DNA of 39,917 bases from Candidatus Solibacter usitatus (GTDB lineage: Bacteria > Acidobacteriota > Terriglobia > Bryobacterales > Bryobacteraceae): the NCBI GenBank assembly GCA_016213245.1, contig JACRBC010000137.1, positions 1 through 39,917 on the forward strand. The letters are read 5' to 3'. A program made the translations under genes and the position numbers. The notes below the pieces were generated by a model. The model saw nothing but the letters and a program-made list of their open reading frames with translations, had not been told where the DNA came from and ran no database searches. This document shows positions 6,097-31,082 of this stretch, one piece after another. Each line of letters starts with the position of its first letter. The stretch's first letter is position 1.

Positions 6097-7839
6097 TCAC
6101 TCCTTCACGTCCACTTGGACGGTCTTCGAGCCGGCAAATACGGAGTCGCCCCGAGCCATCTCAATCTCGGCCACGCGCGTCGTGGGCTGCTGGGCCGCCG
6201 TGCGGCCCAGCGTCAGCGACATCGACGGCGGCGGCGACGGCAGGTTCTCCCCCTGCACCTGCCAGGATGCCGATTGCCGCCAGACGCGCAGGTACGGCCG
6301 GTCGCTCGGGTGCAGCCCGGAAAGGAACGAGAGGAGCTGCGGGGCCGAGCGCGGCGGCGTCAGCAGGAACTGGCGGTACTCGGCCAGGTTCGACGACGGC
6401 CCGTCGGTGACCGTGAAAAACAGCGCGCCCGCGGGCGCGCCGTTGGGCACCGCGTAGCTCACCGTGCGCGTGACCTCCGTGCCGTGGTCGCCGCTGTAGG
6501 CGGCCATGATCTCCACCGTCTCGCCCGGCCGCACTTCGCGGCGCGAGGCCCAGACGTTGTCGAGCTGGAGCTGTTTCTTCTCCGGAGAGACGTCCAGCTC
6601 GATCTCCAGCCCGCGCAGCTTCAACGCGTCGAAGCCGCTTTGTAGAATCGCCACCACGGGCGCGGCCACCGCGGCGGAAACCTGCTGCGGCGCGCCCAGC
6701 TCGGAGGCGTAAATGTTGTCGATTCTCACCGGCGGCGCGCCGTCCATCAACATGCGCCCGCGCAGCGAAATACTGCCCGCGCCCGCCGTGCGCTCCGTCG
6801 CGTCAATCGCCGAAAAAACGGCCATCTGGAGCAGCAGCGGCGTGAACAGGCGGTCCTGCACCATGTTCATCTGGTAGGACCACTCGCGGGGCGCGACGCC
6901 GCGGCTCCTCACCCGAATCGTCAGCGGCAGCATCACCGCCTTGCGGCCGAGTTGGCCCGAGATGGCCGTGCTGCGGTCGCTGGTGATGGACCCGAGCCAC
7001 TCCTTGGGCGTCGAGATCTTGAACGAGGAGTTCTGGCTGGCCAGCAGCGTGATGACCTCGGCGCGGGCAAAGGGAAGATCGGTATCGCCCACGGAGAGAA
7101 AACGGTGGCCGAAGGCGTAGACGTTCCGGCCGTCGATGTGCGTGACCGTGCCGTCGGCGCCGACGCTCATGTCGCCGCTGACAAGCTGCACGCTGATCAT
7201 CGAGCCGGGTTCCAGCTTCTGCGAGGCGGATGTGGGCTCCACCGGCCTGCCGCCGCCGGAGACGCCCTGCACCGGCTCCAGTCCGGCCGTGCGCAGCGCC
7301 GGCGCGAAGAATTCCACCGCGCCGCGCGTAAATCCGCTCAGCCAAAACGGCGTGGCGATTTCCGCCAGCCGCGCCGGCCCCACGTCCAGCTCCTGCCGCT
7401 TGGGCAGCGATTCGGTGGCGTCGTAGGGAAAGCTGAGCGCGGCGGAACGCCGCGGCGAGGCGGCGGCGGCCTGAAGCATCTCCTCGATGGGACGGATGCC
7501 GGCCACAGGGTCCTTGGAGAAGGGAAAGGAGAGGGCCACCGCGCCCATCAGGCGGCCCTGATAGTAGACCGGGCTGCCGCTCATGCCCTGCATGACCCCG
7601 GTCTTGTCCAGTGGCCCGCCGCTGAGGCGGGCCAGGATGATGGACTGCTTCGGGCCGGAGTTTTCGAGCACGCCCAGGATCTCGCCCTGGAACTCCTCCA
7701 CGCGGCTGCCGGAGAACACCGTGCGCCCGGTGATCTTCATGCCGGCGCGCACGTCCTTCAGGGGCAGGAGCGGCGGGGTCTGGGCCGCCGCTACGAACGC
7801 CAGCAATGCCAAGGCGATGCGGTGCAACACGTTCACCAT
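6097..7839 (-). CDS. SpoIVB-type S55 peptidase-domain secreted protein (motifs in permuted order)
   Basis: 580 residues with a signal peptide (about 1-19). Residues 85-90 read GMSGSP followed by VYYQGRLMGAV, the serine-nucleophile signature of SpoIVB peptidases (S55). A GTVTHIDG..AFGH segment with His245 matches the catalytic-His region of the same family. In SpoIVB the His segment precedes the Ser segment; here the order is reversed. The rest is beta-rich. It heads the five-gene minus-strand operon, so it may process or quality-control the secreted partners encoded downstream. An alternative GTG start at 7830 would fit a leaderless transcript from a TACAAT box at 7838-7843. Proteolytic activity is not proven by the sequence. 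Confidence 0.8.
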   Translation of the reverse strand: MVNVLHRIALALLAFVAAAQTPPLLPLKDVRAGMKITGRTVFSGSRVEEFQGEILGVLENSGPKQSIILARLSGGPLDKTGVMQGMSGSPVYYQGRLMGAVALSFPFSKDPVAGIRPIEEMLQAAAASPRRSAALSFPYDATESLPKRQELDVGPARLAEIATPFWLSGFTRGAVEFFAPALRTAGLEPVQGVSGGGRPVEPTSASQKLEPGSMISVQLVSGDMSVGADGTVTHIDGRNVYAFGHRFLSVGDTDLPFARAEVITLLASQNSSFKISTPKEWLGSITSDRSTAISGQLGRKAVMLPLTIRVRSRGVAPREWSYQMNMVQDRLFTPLLLQMAVFSAIDATERTAGAGSISLRGRMLMDGAPPVRIDNIYASELGAPQQVSAAVAAPVVAILQSGFDALKLRGLEIELDVSPEKKQLQLDNVWASRREVRPGETVEIMAAYSGDHGTEVTRTVSYAVPNGAPAGALFFTVTDGPSSNLAEYRQFLLTPPRSAPQLLSFLSGLHPSDRPYLRVWRQSASWQVQGENLPSPPPSMSLTLGRTAAQQPTTRVAEIEMARGDSVFAGSKTVQVDVKE

Positions 7840-15070: not shown

Positions 15071-16251
15071 CACAACTCACGCTCGCCTGGGCCATCACGC
15101 TGAGCTCGGCCTTCGAGGGCGGCAACATCCGGGACTATCAGCAAGTAGCGCCCGGCCATTTCCGCATCGCGCTGCCGGGCGAGAGCGATCAGGAGGGGCG
15201 CAACCGCCAGGCCAACTGGTACTCGTTCCGGCTGGACGGCGTGCGCGGCAAGCCGCTGACGATCGAACTGACGCGACTGGAAGGCGAGTATAACTACCGG
15301 CCGAACAAGGGCGCGGTCACCGGCGACACTCCGCCGTATTACAGCCTCGACGGCCGCGCCTGGAAGCCGTGGGAGGACTTCACCTACGACGGCGAAACGC
15401 CGAAGCTGGTGCTGCGCATGACGCCGCAGTCTGACCGCTTGTGGGTGGCGCACATTCCGCCGTACACGTCGCAGCATCTGGACGCGCTGCGCCGCGATGC
15501 CGCCAGGCATCCCGCGTTCCGGGAAGAGGTCATCGGCCGCACGGCCGGCGGGCGGCCGATGCACCGCTGGAGGATCACCGCGCCGGGCGACGCGGCGGGC
15601 CGCAAAGTGATCTGGCTGATGGCGCGGCAACACAGTTGGGAGGCGTCCACATCCTGGGTGGCCGAAGGGCTGGTTCGCTATCTGCTGTCGGACGATGCGC
15701 AGGCCGCCCGGATCCGCCGGGAAACCGTCTTCGTGATTCTGCCCATGTGCGACCCCGATGGCGTGGCCCGCGGCGGCGTGCGTTTCAACGCGCACGGCTT
15801 TGACCTGAACCGGAACTGGGATTCCTTCGTTGCGGAGAAGATGCCGGAGATCGCCGCGCAGCACGCCGCGGTCAAATCGTGGCTGGCCGGCGGCGGACGC
15901 ATCGATCTGTTCCTGACGATGCACAACACAGAGACCGCCGAGTATCTGGAAGGCCCGCCCGGCGGGCGGTTTCAGGCGCTCGGCGAACGTCTGTACTCGC
16001 TGCTGGAGCAGAAGACCAGCTTCGCACCGGCGCGCGGTCTCAGTTGGGCGGAGACCACCACCACGGCGGGCAAGCCGGGCCGGATGACAGTGGTGCAGGG
16101 GCTGTGGAAGGACTTCCGCATCCCGGCCTTTCTCACCGAGCAGCGCGTGTCGTTCAACGCGAAGCTGGGCCGCCGCCCGTTGACGGAGGACCGGCTGCGG
16201 TACGGCGGGGAGCTGGCGGCGGCGTTGTGGATGGCGGTGAGCCGCGAGTAG
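15067..16251 (+). CDS. M14-family zinc carboxypeptidase
   Basis: 394 residues from the ATG that overlaps the TPR gene's stop (ATGA); the frame is open far upstream, but that is a GC artefact. A beta-sandwich N-domain (about 20-130) resembles the N-domain of cytosolic carboxypeptidases. The catalytic domain shows zinc ligands H189 and E192 (HSWE) and H286 (MHN), the substrate motif NRN (248-250) and the general base E358 (LTEQ). These are the expected M14 residues, so it is probably active. It would remove C-terminal residues or modified side chains from peptides. The first 15 residues are hydrophobic and could be a weak signal peptide. Confidence 0.85.
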   Translation: MTQLTLAWAITLSSAFEGGNIRDYQQVAPGHFRIALPGESDQEGRNRQANWYSFRLDGVRGKPLTIELTRLEGEYNYRPNKGAVTGDTPPYYSLDGRAWKPWEDFTYDGETPKLVLRMTPQSDRLWVAHIPPYTSQHLDALRRDAARHPAFREEVIGRTAGGRPMHRWRITAPGDAAGRKVIWLMARQHSWEASTSWVAEGLVRYLLSDDAQAARIRRETVFVILPMCDPDGVARGGVRFNAHGFDLNRNWDSFVAEKMPEIAAQHAAVKSWLAGGGRIDLFLTMHNTETAEYLEGPPGGRFQALGERLYSLLEQKTSFAPARGLSWAETTTTAGKPGRMTVVQGLWKDFRIPAFLTEQRVSFNAKLGRRPLTEDRLRYGGELAAALWMAVSRE

Positions 16252-16289
16252 CCGCTCCGGTGTATGCTGTCTCTCGAAAGGGGATTGGC

Positions 16290-17582
16290 ATGTCTGATAT
16301 ATCCCGCCGGGCCTTCGTGGGCTCATCACTCGCCCCGGCAGCGTACGCCGCCGGCGCTCAAGCCTCATCGGTGGCCCCGAGCGACAAGGTGCGCATCGGG
16401 CTGGTTGGCTGCGGCGGCATCTCCACGGCCGACTCCAACGCTTTCCTGGCGCACCCGGAGACGGAGATCGTCGCCGTGTGCGACGTCGACGACGCGATGC
16501 TGGCCAAGACCGTCACCCGGCTGGAGAAGCTCCGCGGCAAGCAGCCGGAGACGGCCAAGGACTACCGGCGCATCGTAGAGCGAAAAGACGTCGATGTTGT
16601 CCTGGTCTGCACGCCGGACCACTGGCACGCGCTGCCGGCCATCGCGGCGATGCAGGCGGGCAAGGACGTCTACGTCGAAAAGCCGCTGGCGACGTCGGTG
16701 CTCGAAAGCAAGGCCGTGCGGGACGCCGCGCGCAGGTACAAGAGCGTGGTCCAGATGGGCACGCACTGGCGCAGCGGGCCGCACTATGCCGAGGCGGTGG
16801 AGATGGTGCGCGCGGGCAAGATCGGCAAGGTGAGGCAGGTGCGCTGCTTCGCCTACCTCGATTGGGTGACCGATTGCGGCGCGCCGCCGGACGGCCCGGC
16901 GCCCGCGGGCGTCGACTACGACATGTGGCTCGGCCCCGCGCCGCTGCGCCCCTTCAACAAGAACCGCTTCCACTTCAACTTCCGCTGGTTCTGGGATTAC
17001 GGCGGCGGGCTGATGACGGACTGGGGCGTGCACCTGATCAATATCGCTCTGTGGGCGATGGGCCCGGAGTGGCCCAAGAGCGTGATTTCTTCCGGCGGCA
17101 AGTACGTGCTCCAGGACAACACGGAGACACCGGACACGCAGATCACGGTCTACGATTTCCCGTCGTACACACTGATCTGGGAGCACCAGGTACAGTGCGG
17201 GCTGGGTCCGGACCGTCGCGAGCACGCCGTGGTCTTCACCGGCAGCGACGCCACGCTGATTCTGGATACCAGCGGCTGGGAGATCATCGCCGAGCCGAAG
17301 AAGCGAGCTTCGGTGGTGGAGATGAGGCGCCGCTATCTCGTCGACGAGAAGGTGCGCGCCGCGCACGCGCGCAATTTCCTTGATTGCGTCAAGAGCCGCC
17401 AGCAGCCGGTGGAGAATCTCGAAGTGGGCCACCACGTCACCGCCGTCTCGCAACTTGGGAACGTGGCTCTGCGTTCGAAGAGCCGGATTGAATGGGACGC
17501 GGCGGCCGAGCGGGTTATCGGCAACGATGTGGCCAACGGCCTGCTGTTCCGATCGTACCGGGCGCCGTGGAAACTGGCATGA
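16290..17582 (+). CDS. Gfo/Idh/MocA-family oxidoreductase with Tat signal
   Basis: 430 residues. The twin-arginine signal SRRAFVGSS (5-13) is followed by a hydrophobic stretch ending near AGA. The Rossmann core starts GLVGCGGIS (38-46). CTPDHWH (107-113) and the catalytic-loop EKP (130-132) mark the family, and DWGVHLIN in the C-domain is also typical. Members oxidise or epimerise sugars using a tightly bound nicotinamide cofactor. Exported members resemble glucose-fructose oxidoreductase. An AAAGGGG site precedes the ATG. Its stop overlaps the start of the next gene (ATGA), so oxidoreductase and isomerase are likely made together. Confidence 0.9.
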   Translation: MSDISRRAFVGSSLAPAAYAAGAQASSVAPSDKVRIGLVGCGGISTADSNAFLAHPETEIVAVCDVDDAMLAKTVTRLEKLRGKQPETAKDYRRIVERKDVDVVLVCTPDHWHALPAIAAMQAGKDVYVEKPLATSVLESKAVRDAARRYKSVVQMGTHWRSGPHYAEAVEMVRAGKIGKVRQVRCFAYLDWVTDCGAPPDGPAPAGVDYDMWLGPAPLRPFNKNRFHFNFRWFWDYGGGLMTDWGVHLINIALWAMGPEWPKSVISSGGKYVLQDNTETPDTQITVYDFPSYTLIWEHQVQCGLGPDRREHAVVFTGSDATLILDTSGWEIIAEPKKRASVVEMRRRYLVDEKVRAAHARNFLDCVKSRQQPVENLEVGHHVTAVSQLGNVALRSKSRIEWDAAAERVIGNDVANGLLFRSYRAPWKLA

Positions 17583-18466
17583 TCAGCCGCCGCCTGTTCT
17601 GCAGCCTGCCCGCCGCGGCCGTGGCTTCGGCGGCCCAGAACTGGGAAGAGCGGCTGGCGGTGATGTGCCAGCTTGGCTCTTCGGAGGCGAACGCCCGCAA
17701 GGTGCTGGACGCCGCGCGCGAGGCGGGCTTCCGCCGCGTAATGGTGAACTTCGCCTGGGATCGCGTCGATGACGCGTTCCTCTCGGGCCTGCCGGGCTGG
17801 CTACGCGCCGCCGGGCTGCGCTCGGAGGCGCTGGGCGCCTACGTCAACTGCGCCGCGCCCGACCAGGTGCTGATGAGCACGCGCGCGCGCGACTTCGCCC
17901 GCGCCATCGTTTACGCCGCCGGCCTGGGCTGCCGCCGGCTGGTGGCCTGGACCGGCTCGCATACGGCGGAGCTGATGAAGGCCGACGCACGCAACTTCAC
18001 GCGCGAATCCGAGGACGCCATCGTGCGTTTCCTGGAGCCGTACTACGAGCGCCTGGAGCAGAACCGGCTCACGCTGGCCCTGGAGACCTACGTGACGCTG
18101 GTGTGCCCGGACGCGCGCGCGCTACGGCGCGTGCTGGACCGCCTGCCGCGCACCGTTACCGCGGTGATGGATCCGCCCAACCTCACGGCGCCGGCGCGCT
18201 TCCCGCAGCGCGATGAAGCGCTGCGCGAGATGTTCCGCGCGCTGGAAGGCCGGGTCGGTGTCGTCCACCTGAAGGACTTCCGCCTGGCGGCGGACGGCCA
18301 GACGTATGAGCTACCCGGCCCGCTGGCGGGCGCGATGAACTACAGGCTCTACGCGGAGTTGATCCGCACTCTGCCCGCCGATGTTCCGGTGGTCGCCGAG
18401 CACATCGGTCCGGAAGAGTTCGCCTCCACGCGGCGGAAGCTGCTGGCCATCTTCAACGCGCGGTGA
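17579..18466 (+). CDS. Sugar phosphate isomerase/epimerase-like TIM barrel
   Basis: 295 residues from the ATG overlapping the previous stop; the frame continues upstream, but coupling favours this start. The N-terminus carries an RR-type export signal (SRRLFCSLPAAAVASA). The barrel has LALETYV, VMDPPNL, VVHLKDF and PVVAEHIG segments, matching the metal-binding Glu, Asp, His and Glu of the xylose-isomerase-like/AP-endonuclease-2 superfamily. It probably interconverts a sugar or sugar derivative in the same pathway as the adjacent oxidoreductase; the substrate is unknown. Its last 14 bp overlap the convergent ThuA gene. Confidence 0.85.
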   Translation: MISRRLFCSLPAAAVASAAQNWEERLAVMCQLGSSEANARKVLDAAREAGFRRVMVNFAWDRVDDAFLSGLPGWLRAAGLRSEALGAYVNCAAPDQVLMSTRARDFARAIVYAAGLGCRRLVAWTGSHTAELMKADARNFTRESEDAIVRFLEPYYERLEQNRLTLALETYVTLVCPDARALRRVLDRLPRTVTAVMDPPNLTAPARFPQRDEALREMFRALEGRVGVVHLKDFRLAADGQTYELPGPLAGAMNYRLYAELIRTLPADVPVVAEHIGPEEFASTRRKLLAIFNAR

Positions 18467-19451
18467 GGTCTTCCGGCTTCACGCCCTTGACGTGCCCGTT
18501 GAACTTGAACGGCGAGGGCCTGTACTCGCCCACGAGGTCGACGCTGGAGCCGGGCTGGATCGCCTTCTCCATTCCCAACGCCCAGTAGACGCCGTTGACC
18601 ATCAGGCGGCGGAAGCAGGCGTCGCTCAGATCCTGGGACGAGCCCATGCTGGTGGTGAAGACGCGCGCGGCTTTGCCGGCCGATCCGGTGTAGGTGCGGG
18701 TCCAGGCCACGGGCATCATCGGCTCGTTCTGCGGGCCCGCGGCCGGCGCGGAGTCCGGCGTCATGCCGTCGGTGACCTGGCCGAGCAACAGGGGCAGGCT
18801 GTCGCCGGGCAGCGGCAGTTTGGCCGCGTAGACGTCGGTGGGCACCCAGAGCGCGCCGCTGGCGATGCCGCGCAGGATCGGGTGGGCCTCCTGGCCCGGC
18901 GCGATGATGCCGCGCGTGCCCTGTACGGCGTGCTTGCCGTGATGGCGGATCCAGGTCTCGCCCAGCACCTGGCGGCCGAAGCCGCCGTCCCACTCCTTGC
19001 TGTTCCAGCTCCACGCGGCGTAGGTCTGGTGCAGTTTGAAGTTGAAGGCATGGGTGGCGGTGCGCATGCCCACGATAGGGCGGCCGGAGTTGACGTAATC
19101 GACGATGTGCTTCATCTGCTCGTCCGGCAGGTCGCGGAAGCGCGTGAAGATCACCATCAGGCCGGCCTTGGCGAGCGCCTCCAGGCCGGGGATGTTGTCG
19201 GCCTGGTTCGGATTGATGGCGCCATCGGCCTTGTCGATGGCGAACAGCACGGTGCACTTGAAGCCGTGGCGCGTCGAGAGGATTTTGGCCAACTGCGGCA
19301 GGGCCTCCTCCGAGCGGTACTCCTCATCGCCGCTCACCAGCACGATGTGTTTGCCCCGGCCCGGGCCCTTACCGCCTTCAAAGACGATGCCCGCGCCAGG
19401 GGCCGCGCTCAGGCCGAGCGCGAGAAGAAAGGGAAGCAGACGTTGTGTCAC
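18453..19451 (-). CDS. Secreted ThuA-domain protein
   Basis: 332 residues with a signal peptide (about 1-17). The ThuA (glutamine amidotransferase-like fold) core is recognisable by VLVSGDEEYRSEE (37-49), the FTRFRDLP region and GMRTATHAF (about 130-138). ThuA is associated with trehalose and other sugar utilisation, but its reaction is not settled. The start is GTG 19451. A GGGAGG sequence lies only 1 nt before it, an unusually short spacing, yet no better start is present. It lies 19 bp after the TonB-like gene and overlaps the convergent sugar isomerase gene by 14 bp. A link to the opposite sugar cluster is plausible. Confidence 0.85.
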   Translation of the reverse strand: MTQRLLPFLLALGLSAAPGAGIVFEGGKGPGRGKHIVLVSGDEEYRSEEALPQLAKILSTRHGFKCTVLFAIDKADGAINPNQADNIPGLEALAKAGLMVIFTRFRDLPDEQMKHIVDYVNSGRPIVGMRTATHAFNFKLHQTYAAWSWNSKEWDGGFGRQVLGETWIRHHGKHAVQGTRGIIAPGQEAHPILRGIASGALWVPTDVYAAKLPLPGDSLPLLLGQVTDGMTPDSAPAAGPQNEPMMPVAWTRTYTGSAGKAARVFTTSMGSSQDLSDACFRRLMVNGVYWALGMEKAIQPGSSVDLVGEYRPSPFKFNGHVKGVKPEDLTAR

Positions 19452-21462: not shown

Positions 21463-21467
21463 AGGGA
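21463..21467 (+). promoter_or_regulatory. RBS selecting the DoxX-fusion start
   Basis: GGGAG, in AAGGGAG, lies 9 nt before ATG 21477. It favours 21477 over the in-frame candidate at 21453, which lacks a site. Confidence 0.6.
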
Positions 21468-21476
21468 GTACGTCTC

Positions 21477-22997
21477 ATGACAAACGACAGCACCGCGGCT
21501 TCCCGCATGGCAGATAGGCCGCAGGCCTATGGCGAATACCTGCTGGCCACGCTGCGCATCATCATTGGCTGGCACTTCCTCTATGAAGGAATGACAAAGC
21601 TGATCTTCCCGGGTTGGACATCGGCCGGTTACCTCTCGTCGAGCGTTGGGCCGTTCTCCGCACTCTTTCATTGGCTGGGCGCCAACCAGGCGCTGGTGGC
21701 GGTAATGGACCAGATCAACATCTGGGGGCTGCTGCTGATCGGGCTCGGCCTGATGCTGGGTCTGCTGGCGCGCTGGGCCGCCTGGGGCGGCATTGCGCTG
21801 CTGGCGCTCTACTACTGCGCCTATCCTCCGCTGTTCGGCCCGGTGACGGCGGGCGTCAACGAAGGCAGCTACCTGCTGGTGAACAAGAACCTGATCGAGT
21901 TGTTCGCCCTGGCCGTGCTGGCGGCCTTTCCCGGCGCAACGTTCGGGCTCGACGGCCTGCTCGCGCAGCGCTTCGACAAGCCCGTCCCGGCGCAACTCGG
22001 CCCCATCCCCCGGCGGCAGCTCATCGCCAACCTGGCCGGCCTGCCCTTCCTGGGCCTGTTTGTGCTGGCGGCGCTGAAGCGCCACGGCTGGAAGAGCATG
22101 GAAGAGATCCAGTTGCGCGCCCGCGCCGGCCGGCGCGATACCTTCGTCGCCAGCCCCACCGTCAAGAGTTTCCAGTTCAGCAGCCTGGGCGAGTTGAAGG
22201 GCCGGCTGCCGCGCGGCAAGATCGGCGATCTGACTCTCAGCCGGATGATCCTCGGCGGCAACCTGATCGGCGGCTGGGCACACGCCCGCGACCTGATCTA
22301 CGCCTCCAAACTGGTGAAGGCGTATCATCACCGTGACAAGATCTTCGAGACCTTCGCGCTGGCGGAAGCGTGCAGCGTCAACACGGTGCTGACCAATCCG
22401 GCGCTGTGCGACGTGATCAACGACTACTGGCGGCGCGGCGGCAAGATCCAGTTCATCTCCGATTGCGGCGGCAAGGACATCCTGGCCATGACCCAGAAGT
22501 CCATCGACCGCGGCGCCTGCGCCTGCTACATCCAGGGCGGCGTGGCCGACCGGCTGGTGGCCGAAAGCAAGTTCGACCTGATGGCCAAGGCTCTGGAACT
22601 GACGCGCCGCAACGGCCTGCCCGCCGGCATCGGCGGCCATAAACTGGAGACCATCCAGGCGTGTGTCGACCGCGGGCTGCTGCCCGATTTCTGGATGAAG
22701 ACGCTGCACAAGACCGAGTACTGGTCGGCCAAGCCGCAACCGGAGTGCGACAACATCTGGTGCGCCGACGCGGTTGAGGTGGCCGCCTACATGCGCAACC
22801 TGAAGCAGCCCTGGATCGCGTTCAAGATCCTGGCCGCCGGCGCCATCGAGCCCAAGGCCGCCTTCCAGTGGGCCTTTGAACAGGGCGCCGATTTCATCTG
22901 TGTCGGCATGTACGACTTCCAGGTGGTGGACGACGTCAACCTGGCGCTTAGCGTTCTGAATGCCGGTCCGGCGCGCCAGCGGGAGTGGTACGCCTAG
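21477..22997 (+). CDS. DoxX membrane domain fused to an aldo/keto-reductase-like TIM barrel
   Basis: 506 residues. Residues 20-155 form a four-helix DoxX-type domain (YLLATLRIIIGWHFLYEG, NIWGLLLIGLGL, LIELFALAVLAAFPG). Residues 178-200 (PIPRRQLIANLAGLPFLGL) read like a Tat-type signal with a fifth hydrophobic helix, now internal. About 225-506 is a soluble barrel starting LTLSRMILGGNLIGGWAHARDL, resembling aldo/keto reductases, with conserved-looking Cys and His clusters (ISDCGG, CACYIQGG, GIGGHKLE). The usual AKR Asp-Tyr-Lys-His tetrad is not obvious, so catalysis is uncertain. The organisation suggests a fusion of DoxX to a formerly exported barrel protein. The URO-D-like gene follows 20 bp later. 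DoxX proteins are often tied to redox or thiosulfate chemistry. Confidence 0.8.
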   Translation: MTNDSTAASRMADRPQAYGEYLLATLRIIIGWHFLYEGMTKLIFPGWTSAGYLSSSVGPFSALFHWLGANQALVAVMDQINIWGLLLIGLGLMLGLLARWAAWGGIALLALYYCAYPPLFGPVTAGVNEGSYLLVNKNLIELFALAVLAAFPGATFGLDGLLAQRFDKPVPAQLGPIPRRQLIANLAGLPFLGLFVLAALKRHGWKSMEEIQLRARAGRRDTFVASPTVKSFQFSSLGELKGRLPRGKIGDLTLSRMILGGNLIGGWAHARDLIYASKLVKAYHHRDKIFETFALAEACSVNTVLTNPALCDVINDYWRRGGKIQFISDCGGKDILAMTQKSIDRGACACYIQGGVADRLVAESKFDLMAKALELTRRNGLPAGIGGHKLETIQACVDRGLLPDFWMKTLHKTEYWSAKPQPECDNIWCADAVEVAAYMRNLKQPWIAFKILAAGAIEPKAAFQWAFEQGADFICVGMYDFQVVDDVNLALSVLNAGPARQREWYA

Positions 22998-23017: not shown

Positions 23018-24322
23018 ATGCTGCACGACCCAAGTCACCGCTCACCGATGCCGGTCGCCACGGAGATAGCGCTCTCCGGAGGCGATCGGGAGATTTTGCG
23101 CACGCTCGCTTCGCAACTGGCCGAGATCGCCGCCCTGCCGGTTCATGCGGAGAAGGCGCGGTTGTGGCGCAAGCTGAACGACCTTCAGTCCGAGCGGCCG
23201 ATGGTGTGGATCAACGAGATCTGCTGGCAGGAGATGGACGTGGATGGCGAATTGACGCTGCGCGCTGAACATCCGTGGGCGCGCGAGCAGGAGCTCGATC
23301 TGCGGCGCACGCTCTACCAGTGGCGCCACCTGCCCGGGGACATGATCGTCAACGGCTGGCTGGCCTGCCCGCTGGCCATTCACAGCACGGACTTCGGCAT
23401 CATCGAGGACGTCGATACCGTCACCACCGACGCGGCCAGCGACATCGTCTCGCGGCGCTTTCACATCCAGATCCGCGATTTCGACGACCTGGAGAAGATC
23501 AGGATGCCGGTGGTGACCCACAACGAGCGCGCCACCGAACTGCGCTATCAGGCCATGAGCGACGTGTATGCCGGCGTCATGCCCGTGCGCAAGACCGGCC
23601 AGACGCACATCTGGTTCACGCCCTGGGACTACCTGATCCGCTGGTGGGGCCTGGAAGAGGCGATGCTGGACCTGCACGAGCGGCCGGCGCTGGTCCACGC
23701 CGCCGTGGAGCGGATGGTGGACGCATGGATGACGGAGCTGGACCAGTTTGTGGAACAGAACCTGCTGTCGCTGGACTGCAACAACACGCGCATCGGCTCC
23801 GGCGGCTACGGGTACACGCAGGCCCTGCCGGGCGCCGGCTTCGATCCGGCCTTCGTCCAGCCGCACAACATGTGGGGCTGCTCCAACGCCCAGATCTTCT
23901 CCGACGTGTCGCCGGCCATGCACTGGGAGTTCGCCGTCGAGCACGACCTGCGCTGGCTGGCCCGCTGGGGGCTGGTCTACTACGGCTGCTGCGAACCGCT
24001 GGACCGCAAGATCGACATCCTGCGCCGCATTCCGAACCTACGGAAGATCTCAGCCAGCCCGTGGTGCCGGACGCCGCGCCTGGTCGACAAGGTGGGCCGG
24101 GATTACGTCATCAGCCGCAAACCCACTCCGGCCATCTTCGCCGGCGACGTCTGGCGCCCCGAGCAGGCCCGCGACGACCTACGCCAGTTCCTGGAAGCGG
24201 CGCGAGGCTGCCACGTCGAACTGATCATGAAGGACATCTCCACCCTTCGCTACCACCCGCAACGCCTGTGGGAGTGGGCGCGCATCGCCATGGAGGTGGC
24301 CGAGGAGTTCGCTGCCTGTTAG
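23018..24322 (+). CDS. Uroporphyrinogen-decarboxylase-superfamily protein
   Basis: 434 residues from ATG 23018 (AGG 6 nt upstream). GTG 22985, overlapping the previous gene, and ATG 23048 are alternatives. The sequence has the URO-D-like TIM-barrel layout seen in corrinoid-dependent methyltransferases (MtaA/CmuA type): an aromatic-rich core and a C-terminal YYGCCEPLDRKID...SPWC region, where Cys residues could bind zinc. The tail reads VELIMKDISTLRYHP. It is not the heme-pathway HemE. The substrate is unknown; a C1-transfer or decarboxylase role is an inference. It lies 20 bp behind the DoxX fusion and probably shares its mRNA. Confidence 0.8.
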   Translation: MLHDPSHRSPMPVATEIALSGGDREILRTLASQLAEIAALPVHAEKARLWRKLNDLQSERPMVWINEICWQEMDVDGELTLRAEHPWAREQELDLRRTLYQWRHLPGDMIVNGWLACPLAIHSTDFGIIEDVDTVTTDAASDIVSRRFHIQIRDFDDLEKIRMPVVTHNERATELRYQAMSDVYAGVMPVRKTGQTHIWFTPWDYLIRWWGLEEAMLDLHERPALVHAAVERMVDAWMTELDQFVEQNLLSLDCNNTRIGSGGYGYTQALPGAGFDPAFVQPHNMWGCSNAQIFSDVSPAMHWEFAVEHDLRWLARWGLVYYGCCEPLDRKIDILRRIPNLRKISASPWCRTPRLVDKVGRDYVISRKPTPAIFAGDVWRPEQARDDLRQFLEAARGCHVELIMKDISTLRYHPQRLWEWARIAMEVAEEFAAC

Positions 24323-28125: not shown

Positions 28126-28714
28126 ATGGATCAGGCGGGCGAATCTTCATGATAACATCTGCGCCTTTCCCGTCCTCCGCGATATAACTGGGACACATGG
28201 TGCGTCCTGAAAGACGCGTTGATCTAGCAGGTGCAAGTCCTGTCCGGGTAAGCGCCGGAGCGCCCGGTAGCAGACTCCAGCAGGGAGGAGAGATCCGACC
28301 GCGCCGAGCGGAGTGTCGAAAGCCCTTGAAAGAGAGGGGAGCAAAGCAGCGGGCCGCAACGAAGGTGAACGCAACAGCCTCGTCAGATTATCAGCCGAAA
28401 GGTGTTTGGGAGGGCCGAGCCGCTCATGTCACGGCGAAGGCAACAGACAGCATCCTGGGAAACCGGAACGGGTGCTGGACCTCCCCGGGGTCGCAGGCGG
28501 CGGCACGTTGGGAAAGATCAGTGCGGAACAGGAGAGACCCTACCTGGCAGCCAAGTCGGGCAAAGACCGGGCGTATAAGGCCGGAAGGCTGAAGTCGCAC
28601 GGAGCCGGGAGGGAGTCCGAGAGGTCCGTAGTACCGGAGAAGGCGTGCAAGACAACGCGCTGGAGGGAAGGGGCCTTGCTTTGATCGAGCTTGTGTGGAG
28701 GTAAGTGCGAGGGC

Positions 28715-30102
28715 ATGCCGGAGACGGCTAACATCCCCGTCGATAAAGTACGACAACTCCAACGCAAGCTATGGGTGTGCGCCAAGCGGAGTAAGACGCG
28801 GCGTTTCCATGCGCTGTACGACCGGATCTGCAGGAGTGACGTTCTGTGGGAAGCATGGAAGCGAGTGCGCAGTAATGGCGGCGCGGCGGGGATCGACGGC
28901 GAGACGATCCAGGCCATCGAACAACGAGGCGCGGGAGAGTTTCTGGCGGAGATTCAGGCAGCGCTGCGGGCAGGCCGATACCGCCCTTCAGCGGTGAAGC
29001 GGCGGTACATTCCGAAGGCTGATGGGAAACAGCGGCCACTGGGGATACCGACGGTGCGGGATCGAGTGGCGCAGATGGCGGCGAAGATAGTGATCGAGCC
29101 GATCTTTGAGGCGGACTTCCAGGACAGCAGTTATGGATTCCGGCCGGGGAGGAGCGCGACACAGGCCCTGGAAGCGATCCGCGTGGCGGGCAACCAGGGC
29201 TACAACTTCGTCGTTGATGCGGACATTCAGGGCTACTTGACAACATCCGGCAGGACACCTTGCTGGATCTGGTGAAGGAGCGGATCTCGGACCGGAGGGT
29301 GTTGAAGTTGATCCGCCAGTGGTTGGAAGCCGGAGTGATGGAGGACGGCACGGTGAGACAAACGCTGGCGGGAACCCCGCAGGGCGGAGTGATCTCGCCA
29401 TTGCTGGCCAACATCTACCTGAACAAGCTGGACCGGATCTGGGCGGCTCGATGCAGCCAGCTTGGAGTCCTGGTGCGGTACGCCGACGACTTCGTGGCCA
29501 TGTGCCGGACGGAGTCGCAGGCCAGGGAAGCGCTCCGGCGGATCGGGCTGGTGATGGACCGGCTCGGATTGACGCTGCATCCGGCGAAGACGCGGTTGGT
29601 TGACTTAAGACGCGGGAAGGAGAGCTTCGTGTTTTTGGGATGCACGATTCGAAAGAAGCGGAGCATCCAGCGGGCGCCGGACAGGCATTTCATGCAGCGG
29701 TGGCCGAATCCGAAGGCAACGAAGAAACTCCGGGACCGGGTGCGAGAGCTGACCAGCAAGCGGCAAAGCGGGAAAGACGTGAAGCAGATCGTTGCTGAAC
29801 TGACGCCCGTGCTTCGCGGCTGGGGGAACTATTTCCGGACGGGGAACGCCGACCGGGAGTTCAACAAGATGGACTCGTTGGTGGTGAAGAGTCTGCGGCG
29901 CTGGCAGTATCGGCGCGGCGGGCAGAGACCTACGAAACGAGCGCCCTTCACCGGCGATCAGCTATACGGTATGGGTTTGCACAAGTTGATGGGCACGGTG
30001 GAATACCCGTCGCAAGCTACACCACGAAGATCATCGTTAAGCCGTGTGCCGGAAAACGGCACGCACGGTTTGAAAGGGGATTTTAGAAACGGGCCGGCGT
30101 AA
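28715..30102 (+). pseudogene. Group II intron reverse transcriptase/maturase, one frameshift
   Basis: ATG 28715 begins MPETANIPVDK. RT domains run through GGAAGIDG, RRYIPKADGKQRPLGIPTVRDR, SYGFRPGRS and the motif A region DADIQGY. A missing base at about 29237-29239 turns the expected YFDNI into a premature end. The next frame resumes DNIRQDTLLD and carries GTPQGGVISPLLANIYL, the catalytic YADD, and a maturase domain X (RGWGNYFRTGN). No HNH endonuclease motif is seen. Without the missing base it would be a normal-length maturase. The second frame runs on to 30102, across ribozyme domain V. A sequencing error cannot be excluded. Confidence 0.85.
30039..30071 (+). ncRNA. Group II intron domain V
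   Basis: The hairpin AAGCCGTG.. paired with ..CACGGTTT has an AGC triad at 30040-30042, an apical stem GCCG/CGGC with a GAAA-type loop, and an internal bulge. This matches the catalytic domain V of group II introns in size and motif order. It lies inside the maturase reading frame. Confidence 0.8.
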
Positions 30103-30128: not shown

Positions 30129-31082
30129 ATGCAGACCCGTCAACTCGGCAACTCCGACCTCTTCCTCACGCCGCTCGGCACAGGCGCCTGGGCCATGGGC
30201 GGCGGGGGGTGGGCCTTCTCCTGGGGCGCGCAGGACGATGCGGAGTCCGTCGCCGCCATCCGCGCCGCCGTGGACGCCGGAATGAACTGGATCGACACGG
30301 CCGCCGTGTATGGGCTGGGTCACTCCGAGGAGGTGGTGGCCAAGGCCGTCGAGGGGCTCGCCGACAGGCCGTACATCTTCACCAAGTGCGAGCGCTGCTG
30401 GGACGAGAGCGGCGGCATCATCAAGCGCCTGAAGCGCGACTCCGTTCGCAGCGAGTGCGAAGACTCCCTGCGCAGGCTGAAGGTGGACGTCATCGACCTC
30501 TACCAGATTCACTGGCCCGAGCCGGACGAGGACATCGAAGAGGGCTGGGAGGCGATGCTGCGGCTCAAGGAGGAGGGCAAGGTGCGTTGGACGGGCGTCT
30601 CGAATTTCAGCGTGGCGCAACTGGAGCGCATCCGGCGGCTTGGCCCCATCACGTCGCTGCAGCCGCCCTACAATCTGCTGGCGCGCGAGATCGAGGGCGA
30701 CACGCTGCCCTACTGCGCCGCGCACAACATCGGCGTGCTGTGCTACTCCCCCATGCACTCCGGCCTGCTGACGGGCAAGATGACCCGCGAGCGCATCGCG
30801 ACGATGGATCCCGACGACCACCGGCAGCGCCGGCCGCAGTTTCAGGAGCCGCTGCTGAGCCGCAACCTGGCGCTGGTGGAACTGTTGCGCGAGATCGGGG
30901 GACGTCACGGCCGGACGGCGGGCGAGACGGCCCTCGCCTGGACGCTGCGCCGGCCGGAGGTGACGGCCTCGATCACCGGGCTACGCTCGGCGGCGCAACT
31001 GGAGGGCGTCATCGGCGCGGCAGAGTTCCGGCTGTCAGCGGAAGAGGTGGATCAGATCGAGGGCTTCCTGAACCAGGCATAG
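30129..31082 (+). CDS. Aldo/keto reductase
   Basis: 317 residues. The complete catalytic tetrad is seen: D56 and Y61 (NWIDTAAVYG), K86 (FTKCER) and H128 (QIHWPE). The family's usual TIM-barrel length is kept. It reduces aldehydes or ketones with NADPH; the substrate is unknown. The ATG at 30129 lies about 24 bp after the presumed end of the group II intron, so its original promoter is probably upstream of the intron. Its 3' end overlaps the convergent methyltransferase gene by 31 bp. Confidence 0.92.
   Translation: MQTRQLGNSDLFLTPLGTGAWAMGGGGWAFSWGAQDDAESVAAIRAAVDAGMNWIDTAAVYGLGHSEEVVAKAVEGLADRPYIFTKCERCWDESGGIIKRLKRDSVRSECEDSLRRLKVDVIDLYQIHWPEPDEDIEEGWEAMLRLKEEGKVRWTGVSNFSVAQLERIRRLGPITSLQPPYNLLAREIEGDTLPYCAAHNIGVLCYSPMHSGLLTGKMTRERIATMDPDDHRQRRPQFQEPLLSRNLALVELLREIGGRHGRTAGETALAWTLRRPEVTASITGLRSAAQLEGVIGAAEFRLSAEEVDQIEGFLNQA

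Follow-up and report, generated by a model that had tools for sequence, protein, structure and literature searches.

The gene at 21,477-22,997 on the forward strand of the analysed DNA (a stretch of 39,917 nucleotides, hereafter the window) encodes one protein in which a four-helix DoxX domain, an internal twin-arginine (RR) motif with a fifth membrane helix (TM5), and an aldo-keto reductase (AKR)-like TIM barrel follow one another. With a probability of roughly 0.55, we read the product as a membrane-tethered periplasmic enzyme assembled by Sec and then Tat on a DoxX platform, from which electrons might pass to quinone. According to this model, the four DoxX helices would be inserted first, by Sec, and the fifth helix would be held back while the barrel folds in the cytoplasm. 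The RR before helix five would then pass the folded barrel to the Tat machinery for translocation, and the helix, left uncleaved, would serve as an anchor packed against DoxX. DoxX and the RR helix with a proline ten residues after the pair (RR-x9-P) would form a reusable platform, which elsewhere would serve Tat-exported Gfo/Idh/MocA enzymes as two proteins, and DoxX would most likely move electrons from the exported enzyme to quinone. We infer Tat dependence, topology, and docking, the last two with good support from the sequence; more conjectural than these are the electron step and the barrel reaction, which probably acts on a sugar or sugar derivative.

The gene and its parts are arranged as follows:

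21464..21468, + strand: probable ribosome-binding site GGGAG, 8 bases upstream of the ATG by direct reading
21477..22997, + strand: DoxX, RR-TM5, and AKR-like barrel gene, 506 residues plus stop, dN/dS 0.073 versus the sister
21528..21971, + strand: DoxX domain, residues 18-165, four membrane helices (PF07681 and model helices)
22008..22085, + strand: PRR and fifth membrane helix (TM5), residues 178-203, putative internal Tat signal-anchor
22011..22016, + strand: twin-arginine codons R179-R180, the pair being present in all 77 fusions and all 44 Gfo partners
22044..22046, + strand: P190, the first R of the RR pair plus 11 residues (RR-x9-P alignment)
22086..22196, + strand: linker, residues 204-240, after the positively charged residues that close TM5 (KRHGWKS)
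22197..22994, + strand: AKR-like TIM barrel, residues 241-506, best PDB match 4exb_F, without Pfam match

The order given in a preliminary description of this DNA, namely DoxX, a twin-arginine-like segment, and a full TIM barrel, is that of one intact gene: the single ATG-started frame of 506 residues is free of internal stops, and PRRQLIANLAGLPFLG (residues 178-193) lies between DoxX and the complete barrel. Comparison with the nearest relative (the sister, whose protein is 93% identical) gives an overall dN/dS of 0.073, with values of 0.087 for DoxX, 0.12 for the short linker, 0.072 for the RR-helix, and 0.035 for the barrel, and the substitutions display a strong synonymous bias in each part. 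A frame break between DoxX and the barrel, one of the caveats raised at the outset, is excluded by the intact frame and the low dN/dS, as is a misassembly. The AlphaFold2 model of the window protein, built from 77 sequences, has a mean pLDDT of 85.1 and a pTM of 0.74. It places the DoxX helices at residues 15-43, 71-94, 98-115, and 137-150, models TM5 as 179-185/189-202 with a break near P190, and has barrel strands and helices spanning residues 246 to 496.

The fusion is widespread. Sixteen full-length fusions were found in 15 of the 200 genomes of the window's order, and 10 full-length matches in 6 of the 297 genomes of its phylum, with the window included in both counts. In a pattern scan with one genome per species, of which the best 80 loci were examined, 81 relatives scored above 100 bits; 76 carry DoxX in the same ORF, three have no DoxX in the ORF, and two with masked upstream sequence (L069 and L112) enter neither count. 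The titles of the records bearing fusion ORFs include, among others, Acidobacteria, Bacteroidetes, Planctomycetes, KSB1, Hydrogenedentota, Caldithrix, Kiritimatiellae, Lentisphaerae, and Verrucomicrobia, and nearly all of these records are metagenome-assembled genomes. Because dN/dS is low in all parts and the fusion recurs across phyla, it is explained neither by chance nor by a frame break. One Kiritimatiellales genome carries tandem fusion genes (L077:4455-6047 and 6237-7625), the second of which is cut by the end of the locus.

Relatives of the barrel that lack DoxX reveal where the internal leader may come from. Stand-alone homologues with an N-terminal RR leader, whose existence the preliminary description had left to be checked, are present: the RR stands in front of the barrel in all ten close DoxX-less relatives with a readable leader (L033-L038, L092, L096, L123, and L151, where L151 starts at a contig edge and the RR of L035 lies 48 residues past the likely start). 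The distant DoxX-less relatives that were inspected also have RR leaders at their start, and the searches of the order and the phylum gave further stand-alone relatives beyond those whose leaders were read. When the barrel tree is rooted with distant relatives, the branches below the fused clade (SH-aLRT 96) are those of L034, L037, L151, L038, the pair L036 and L035, and L152; L092 with L123, and L096, fall within the clade, amounting to three state changes in all; this tree was made by a quick method and has several weak forks and long branches, and L152 is labelled stand-alone with its upstream region masked. The simplest story would be one fusion followed by two later losses of DoxX. The proposal that a leader N-terminal in stand-alone relatives became an internal anchor upon fusion is supported, because all ten leaders carry the RR and the tree places most of the stand-alone barrels first. 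Inside the fused clade, the DoxX-less barrel of L096 (L096:868-1935) keeps the RR-x9-P spacing, and the last residues of its leader, LLGAC, resemble a lipobox, as though a lipid anchor had replaced the anchor helix.

DoxX also occurs as a stand-alone gene of about 170 residues, found with the fusion profile and sharing 37-46% identity with the DoxX of the window (18 compared). In 44 of 46 loci, this gene is adjoined, in either gene order, by a Gfo/Idh/MocA oxidoreductase with a Tat leader, identified by Pfam for 8 partners and by phmmer for the rest. The 46 loci include 10 that were chosen with both matches, or one match spanning both, foreknown (L133-L139, L150, L223, and L226); for loci chosen on DoxX alone, the partner is found in 34/36. 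Weak DoxX matches (below 40 bits) of the phylum search and one later match were left out of the stand-alone set, as were, among the 40 loci L193-L232, a cut fusion (L211), fusions (L217-L221), a locus at the same place as L134 (L232), a DoxX cut by the contig end (L216), and four large-insert DoxX genes beside Gfo without TM5 (L212-L215). The two misses are L206, where the end of a Gfo gene lies one gene away with no TM5 visible, and L210, a partly masked locus in which no Gfo was seen. The pairs are found within the window's phylum as well as in genomes to which loci of other phyla led. The 44 partners retain the NAD-binding glycines (G83 and G85 in 44, G88 in 40), as well as E174-K175 in 44 and H286 in 43. 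Among the papers listed in literature searches, none dealt with a DoxX-Gfo or DoxX-barrel pair: DoxX appeared together with MocA in a tuberculosis review, together with twin-arginine in a paper on copper resistance, and together with aldo-keto reductase in none. The four excluded large-insert genes (L212:1567-2613, L213:2266-3891, L214:1629-2786, and L215:2176-3294) encode divergent DoxX proteins with a large insert after the first helix, of about 150-350 residues in the three that were read, and each lies beside or overlaps a Gfo/Idh/MocA homologue without TM5 match, which speaks against the link between DoxX and this helix.

The leaders of the 44 partners match the RR-TM5 profile of the fusions. 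This profile detects 18/18 Gfo ORFs adjoining DoxX (12.0-35.7 bits) and 0/22 Gfo ORFs elsewhere in the loci, a control set in which several ORFs are cut or leader-less and an RR leader is visible in nine. DoxX-less barrels are mostly without a match to it, L035 reaching 17.3 bits. The RR ahead of the fifth helix is invariant in 77/77 aligned fusions (76 further ones and the window), and the RR-x9-P spacing is present in these 77 and in 44/44 Gfo partners, that is, in 121/121 linked proteins, always as the exact RR pair and never as KR or RK. It occurs in 2/26 control leaders (27 rows minus L232, which belongs to a linked pair); these were chosen by regular expression, so that some may not be true leaders, and L096, with its P at +11, was missed. 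Judged by this pattern, the internal RR-helix differs from an ordinary leader and is the special helix common to the Gfo/Idh/MocA partners of stand-alone DoxX. Since the same RR-x9-P helix is carried by the Gfo leader and by the fusion, DoxX is accompanied by a single special Tat helix, either in its own chain or in that of a partner; two unrelated folds thus share this helix where DoxX occurs and, in our sample, hardly anywhere else. Most simply, a helix of the TM5 type would pack on DoxX. Alternatively, the shared helix may go back to a shuffled common ancestor, and both explanations may hold.

The DoxX domain of the window matches PF07681 over residues 23-110 with 23.7 bits, the curated cut-off being 23.6, and 76 of the 77 aligned fusions, including the window, match this family at E<=0.1. 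Whether DoxX is fused or not, five polar residues (R27, H33, Y36, K41, and E141, numbered as in the window) are conserved, which is beyond the needs of an anchor. In an alignment of the 18 stand-alone DoxX proteins and the window, 8 of 19 rows match TQO_large_DoxD (best E 5e-9) and 10 of 19 match HvfX, a family of copper-peptide maturation, with a weaker best E of 1e-6; among the 77 fusions, DoxD is matched by 10 and HvfX by 20, and the window's own DoxX matches neither family. The equivalog cut-off of DoxD is far off, as L134 reaches 18.2 of 300 bits and the window gives no score. We regard this DoxX as a subfamily related to the DoxD of thiosulfate:quinone oxidoreductase, below the equivalog cut-off. 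A Foldseek search with the DoxX and TM5 model gave no match at E<=0.001. In VIA-align, the DoxX model resembles NACHO at a Z of 12.2 and vitamin K carboxylase at Z scores of 7.4-10.0, a likeness that we take as a hint only, because helical bundles may reach such Z scores by a common arrangement. Quinone binding by DoxX would be based on the kinship with DoxD and this weak structural likeness, and we put the quinone step at somewhat under even odds. The transfer of electrons by DoxX to quinone is proposed because it is paired with an oxidoreductase of the NAD(P) type and its best-scoring characterised kin is the membrane subunit of thiosulfate:quinone oxidoreductase. Several observations speak against the overall reading: the barrel lacks the AKR tetrad, more DoxX rows match HvfX than DoxD, TM5 is not unusually weak on the Kyte-Doolittle scale, TatC was not detected in the incomplete genome of the window, the genes neighbouring the fusion vary, and the four large-insert DoxX genes lie beside Gfo genes without the TM5 match. 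Tentatively, the model can be widened: DoxX with RR-x9-P might be a general respiratory platform on which folded dehydrogenases of at least two unrelated folds, delivered by Tat and either fused or separate, dock and hand their electrons to the quinone pool, so that sugars or their derivatives would be oxidised outside the inner membrane with the nicotinamide cofactor staying bound.

The barrel had been described beforehand as AKR-like and without an obvious AKR tetrad, and both points are borne out. Pfam returned no match for the barrel of the window, and structure comparison with Foldseek and VIA-align led to the AKR fold: the closest PDB entry is 4exb_F (Z 21.0, rmsd 2.6, 221 aligned), with further matches to 4exa (Z 20.8; 4exb and 4exa are both PA4992) and L-galactose dehydrogenase (Z 20.0). 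A profile of 95 barrels aligned by hhalign to ten AKR ORFs from the same genome gave a probability of 96.7% and an E of 3.4e-10 for one comparison, and a PDB profile search with the fusion gave weak rows only (best E 0.076, the rest being IMP dehydrogenase). In this remote profile alignment, the tetrad sites D50, K84, and H117 correspond to L305, D329, and Q353, and Y55 falls in a five-residue gap; the H117-equivalent is His in some fusions, and in a global alignment with just one AKR, which is of lower quality, the last tetrad position shifts by one. Following these alignments, the barrel is a remote AKR fold in which three or four members of the catalytic tetrad are lost. Other residues are strongly conserved: N262, H269, H388, K450, and G354 are kept in 95/95 aligned barrels, and K408, T409, H411, Y415, W416, and S417 in 77/77 fusions, so that the fusions share invariant His (269, 388, and 411) and Lys (408 and 450). 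K408 is absent in L035, L037, and all 8 distant relatives. As the tetrad is gone and other residues are conserved, the barrel would work at most like a changed AKR, and we do not file it as one. The Cys/His clusters proposed earlier were not seen in the sequence: the conserved Cys are scattered, partly kept in close DoxX-less relatives (C396 in 7/10 and C475 in 6/10), and give no support for a metal or Cys/His cluster.

Lacking the tetrad, the barrel could instead be a lyase, isomerase, or hydrolase. The most serious rival to electron transfer, which we hold to be rather unlikely, is that DoxX acts only as an anchor or assembly platform and that the barrel is a periplasmic non-redox sugar aldolase, lyase, isomerase, or epimerase, using Lys/His chemistry on an old AKR scaffold. 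The loss of the tetrad, the existence of DoxX-less relatives, and the conservation of K450, H269, H388, and N262 in every barrel and of K408 in every fusion would fit this reading, as would the presence of a deoxyribose-phosphate aldolase (6z9h_A, 4.6e-4) among the Foldseek matches. In deoxyribose-phosphate aldolase, strands 6 and 7 each carry a Lys. Against this rival, DoxX has the same conserved polar core whether it is fused or paired with Gfo, stand-alone DoxX has an NAD-fold oxidoreductase as its partner in all but two loci, and K408 is lost in the relatives named above. That the barrel is a membrane-tethered NADP-dependent aldo-keto reductase of the ordinary type appears improbable: fold similarity to 4exb and L-galactose dehydrogenase and the profile-profile probability argue for it, whereas the tetrad sites are replaced by L305, a gap, D329, and Q353, none of the 77 fusions matches the Pfam AKR model PF00248 even at E<=0.1 (among 10 DoxX-less relatives scanned, L035 alone scores, with 15.1 of the 24 bits required), and the periplasm is not expected to contain free NADPH.

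Concerning the export route, Tooke et al. (2017; PMC5449189) describe representative five-helix proteins with an RR before the last helix that are inserted by Sec and then Tat, and attribute the release from Sec to the low hydrophobicity of the last helix and the positive charges after it. In 75 fusions, the loop ahead of the RR has 11-43 residues, and the 15 residues from position 199 include 2-6 K/R (mean 3.7). On the Kyte-Doolittle scale, TM5 is the least hydrophobic helix in 12/75, and the TM5 of the window is the most hydrophobic of its five; on a biological scale with ad hoc weights, TM5 is the worst helix in 48/75 and the worst or second worst in 64/75, the window's being middling. The helix plan, the RR position, the following charges, and the loop length of the window and the other fusions fit a dual Sec-Tat architecture, and the hydrophobicity values are mixed. 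Every one of 30 other genomes tested has TatC; 29 of these, among them the sister, bear a fusion, and 14/14 of the fusion-bearing ones with at least 90% completeness and at most 5% contamination have it. In the genome of the window itself, which has a completeness of 78.6%, TatC was not detected. That the RR is a positive-inside signal only, with the fifth helix Sec-inserted or lying on the membrane and Tat unused, is the most improbable of the readings. In its favour are the overlap of TM5 hydrophobicity with ordinary helices and the similar plan of DoxDA, which gives no RR-TM5 match; against it are an exact RR pair in all linked proteins, ordinary Tat-type leaders on DoxX-less barrels, and TatC in every other genome tested.

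Two known kinds of protein have features that the fusion joins, dual Sec-Tat membrane proteins and DoxDA-like fusions. The dual Sec-Tat proteins treated by Tooke et al. (2017; PMC5449189), with which we compared the actinobacterial Rieske protein Sco2149, the MoCo protein Sco3746, the MLMS-1 polyferredoxin, and the YkuE family, resemble the window protein in having an even number of helices followed by the RR, a last helix, and an extracytoplasmic domain; positive charges past the last helix are also shared, as are five helices with two of these families. Unlike the proteins in that account, the window protein has DoxX for the heme or Fe-S membrane part, an AKR-like barrel for the MoCo or Fe-S domain, and an additional invariant Pro, and the term DoxX is absent from its main text. 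DoxDA (PF04173, PF07680) is similar to the fusion in that a DoxX-type part is followed by a further hydrophobic segment (seen by eye) and then the DoxA domain. DoxD/DoxA and DoxX-enzyme systems both occur fused or as two genes, with a weak sequence kinship of 9.9-20.5 bits. However, DoxDA has no RR-TM5 match and carries the small DoxA domain in place of the barrel or Gfo, and PF07680 was not among the Pfam matches of the 77 fusions. DoxDA fusions (L234-L236) were present in three Bacteroidota genomes of 247 searched. According to a review, decylubiquinone or ferricyanide accepts the electrons of thiosulfate:quinone oxidoreductase, and Acidithiobacillus has DoxD fused to DoxA (PMC6335251). The barrel shares its fold (Z 21) with the aldo-keto reductase superfamily (PF00248), from which the fusions differ in giving no Pfam match and not keeping the tetrad. 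Tat-exported Gfo/Idh/MocA enzymes have an RR leader and an NAD(P)-fold that differs from the barrel of the window. Their precedents are glucose-fructose oxidoreductase and GH109.

What is new here is that DoxX with an RR-x9-P helix is common to the barrel fusion and the Gfo/Idh/MocA pairs. Few protein families are known whose insertion takes Sec first and Tat second (Tooke et al., 2017; PMC5449189); the fusion is a further candidate, widespread and with a signal, RR-x9-P, that is easy to test. Apart from DoxD, the proteins of the DoxX family are described as mostly uncharacterised (PMC6704655), and in M. tuberculosis a DoxX protein reportedly joins SodA and SseA in an oxidoreductase complex associated with the membrane (PMC6930017). 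DoxX proteins would gain a candidate role as membrane partners of Tat-exported enzymes, and the data point to DoxX with the RR helix as a possible common way of tethering, and perhaps powering, such enzymes. Electron flow through DoxX to quinone, if it takes place, would account for the turnover of exported NAD(P)-type oxidoreductases in the absence of free cofactor.

No fixed operon was seen around the fusion, whose neighbours vary: in the 80 loci in which they were named (by eye, from one example per cluster), Gfo/Idh/MocA genes occur in 12 and sulfatase genes in 10. The next gene in the window (23,048-24,322) encodes a 424-residue protein that is 92% identical in the sister genome. Its earlier description as URO-D-like was not confirmed, as neither Pfam nor NCBIfam gave a match for it and the PDB gave none that was significant, and a URO-D operon partner was dropped from consideration since, among the 94 loci searched (some short or overlapping), a homologue lies next to the fusion in the sister genome only. 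Upstream, the region 15,879-19,451 looks like a sugar-oxidation cluster, with a Tat-leader Gfo/Idh/MocA gene (16,290-17,582) whose leader has no TM5 profile match, a xylose-isomerase-like TIM barrel (17,492-18,466), and a gene on the minus strand (18,453-19,451) that is ThuA-like by eye. Further downstream, a group II intron at 28,225-30,102, with an Rfam D1-D4 match at 28,225-28,364 and a reverse transcriptase with maturase domain at 29,260-30,102, directly precedes an aldo/keto reductase gene at 30,129.
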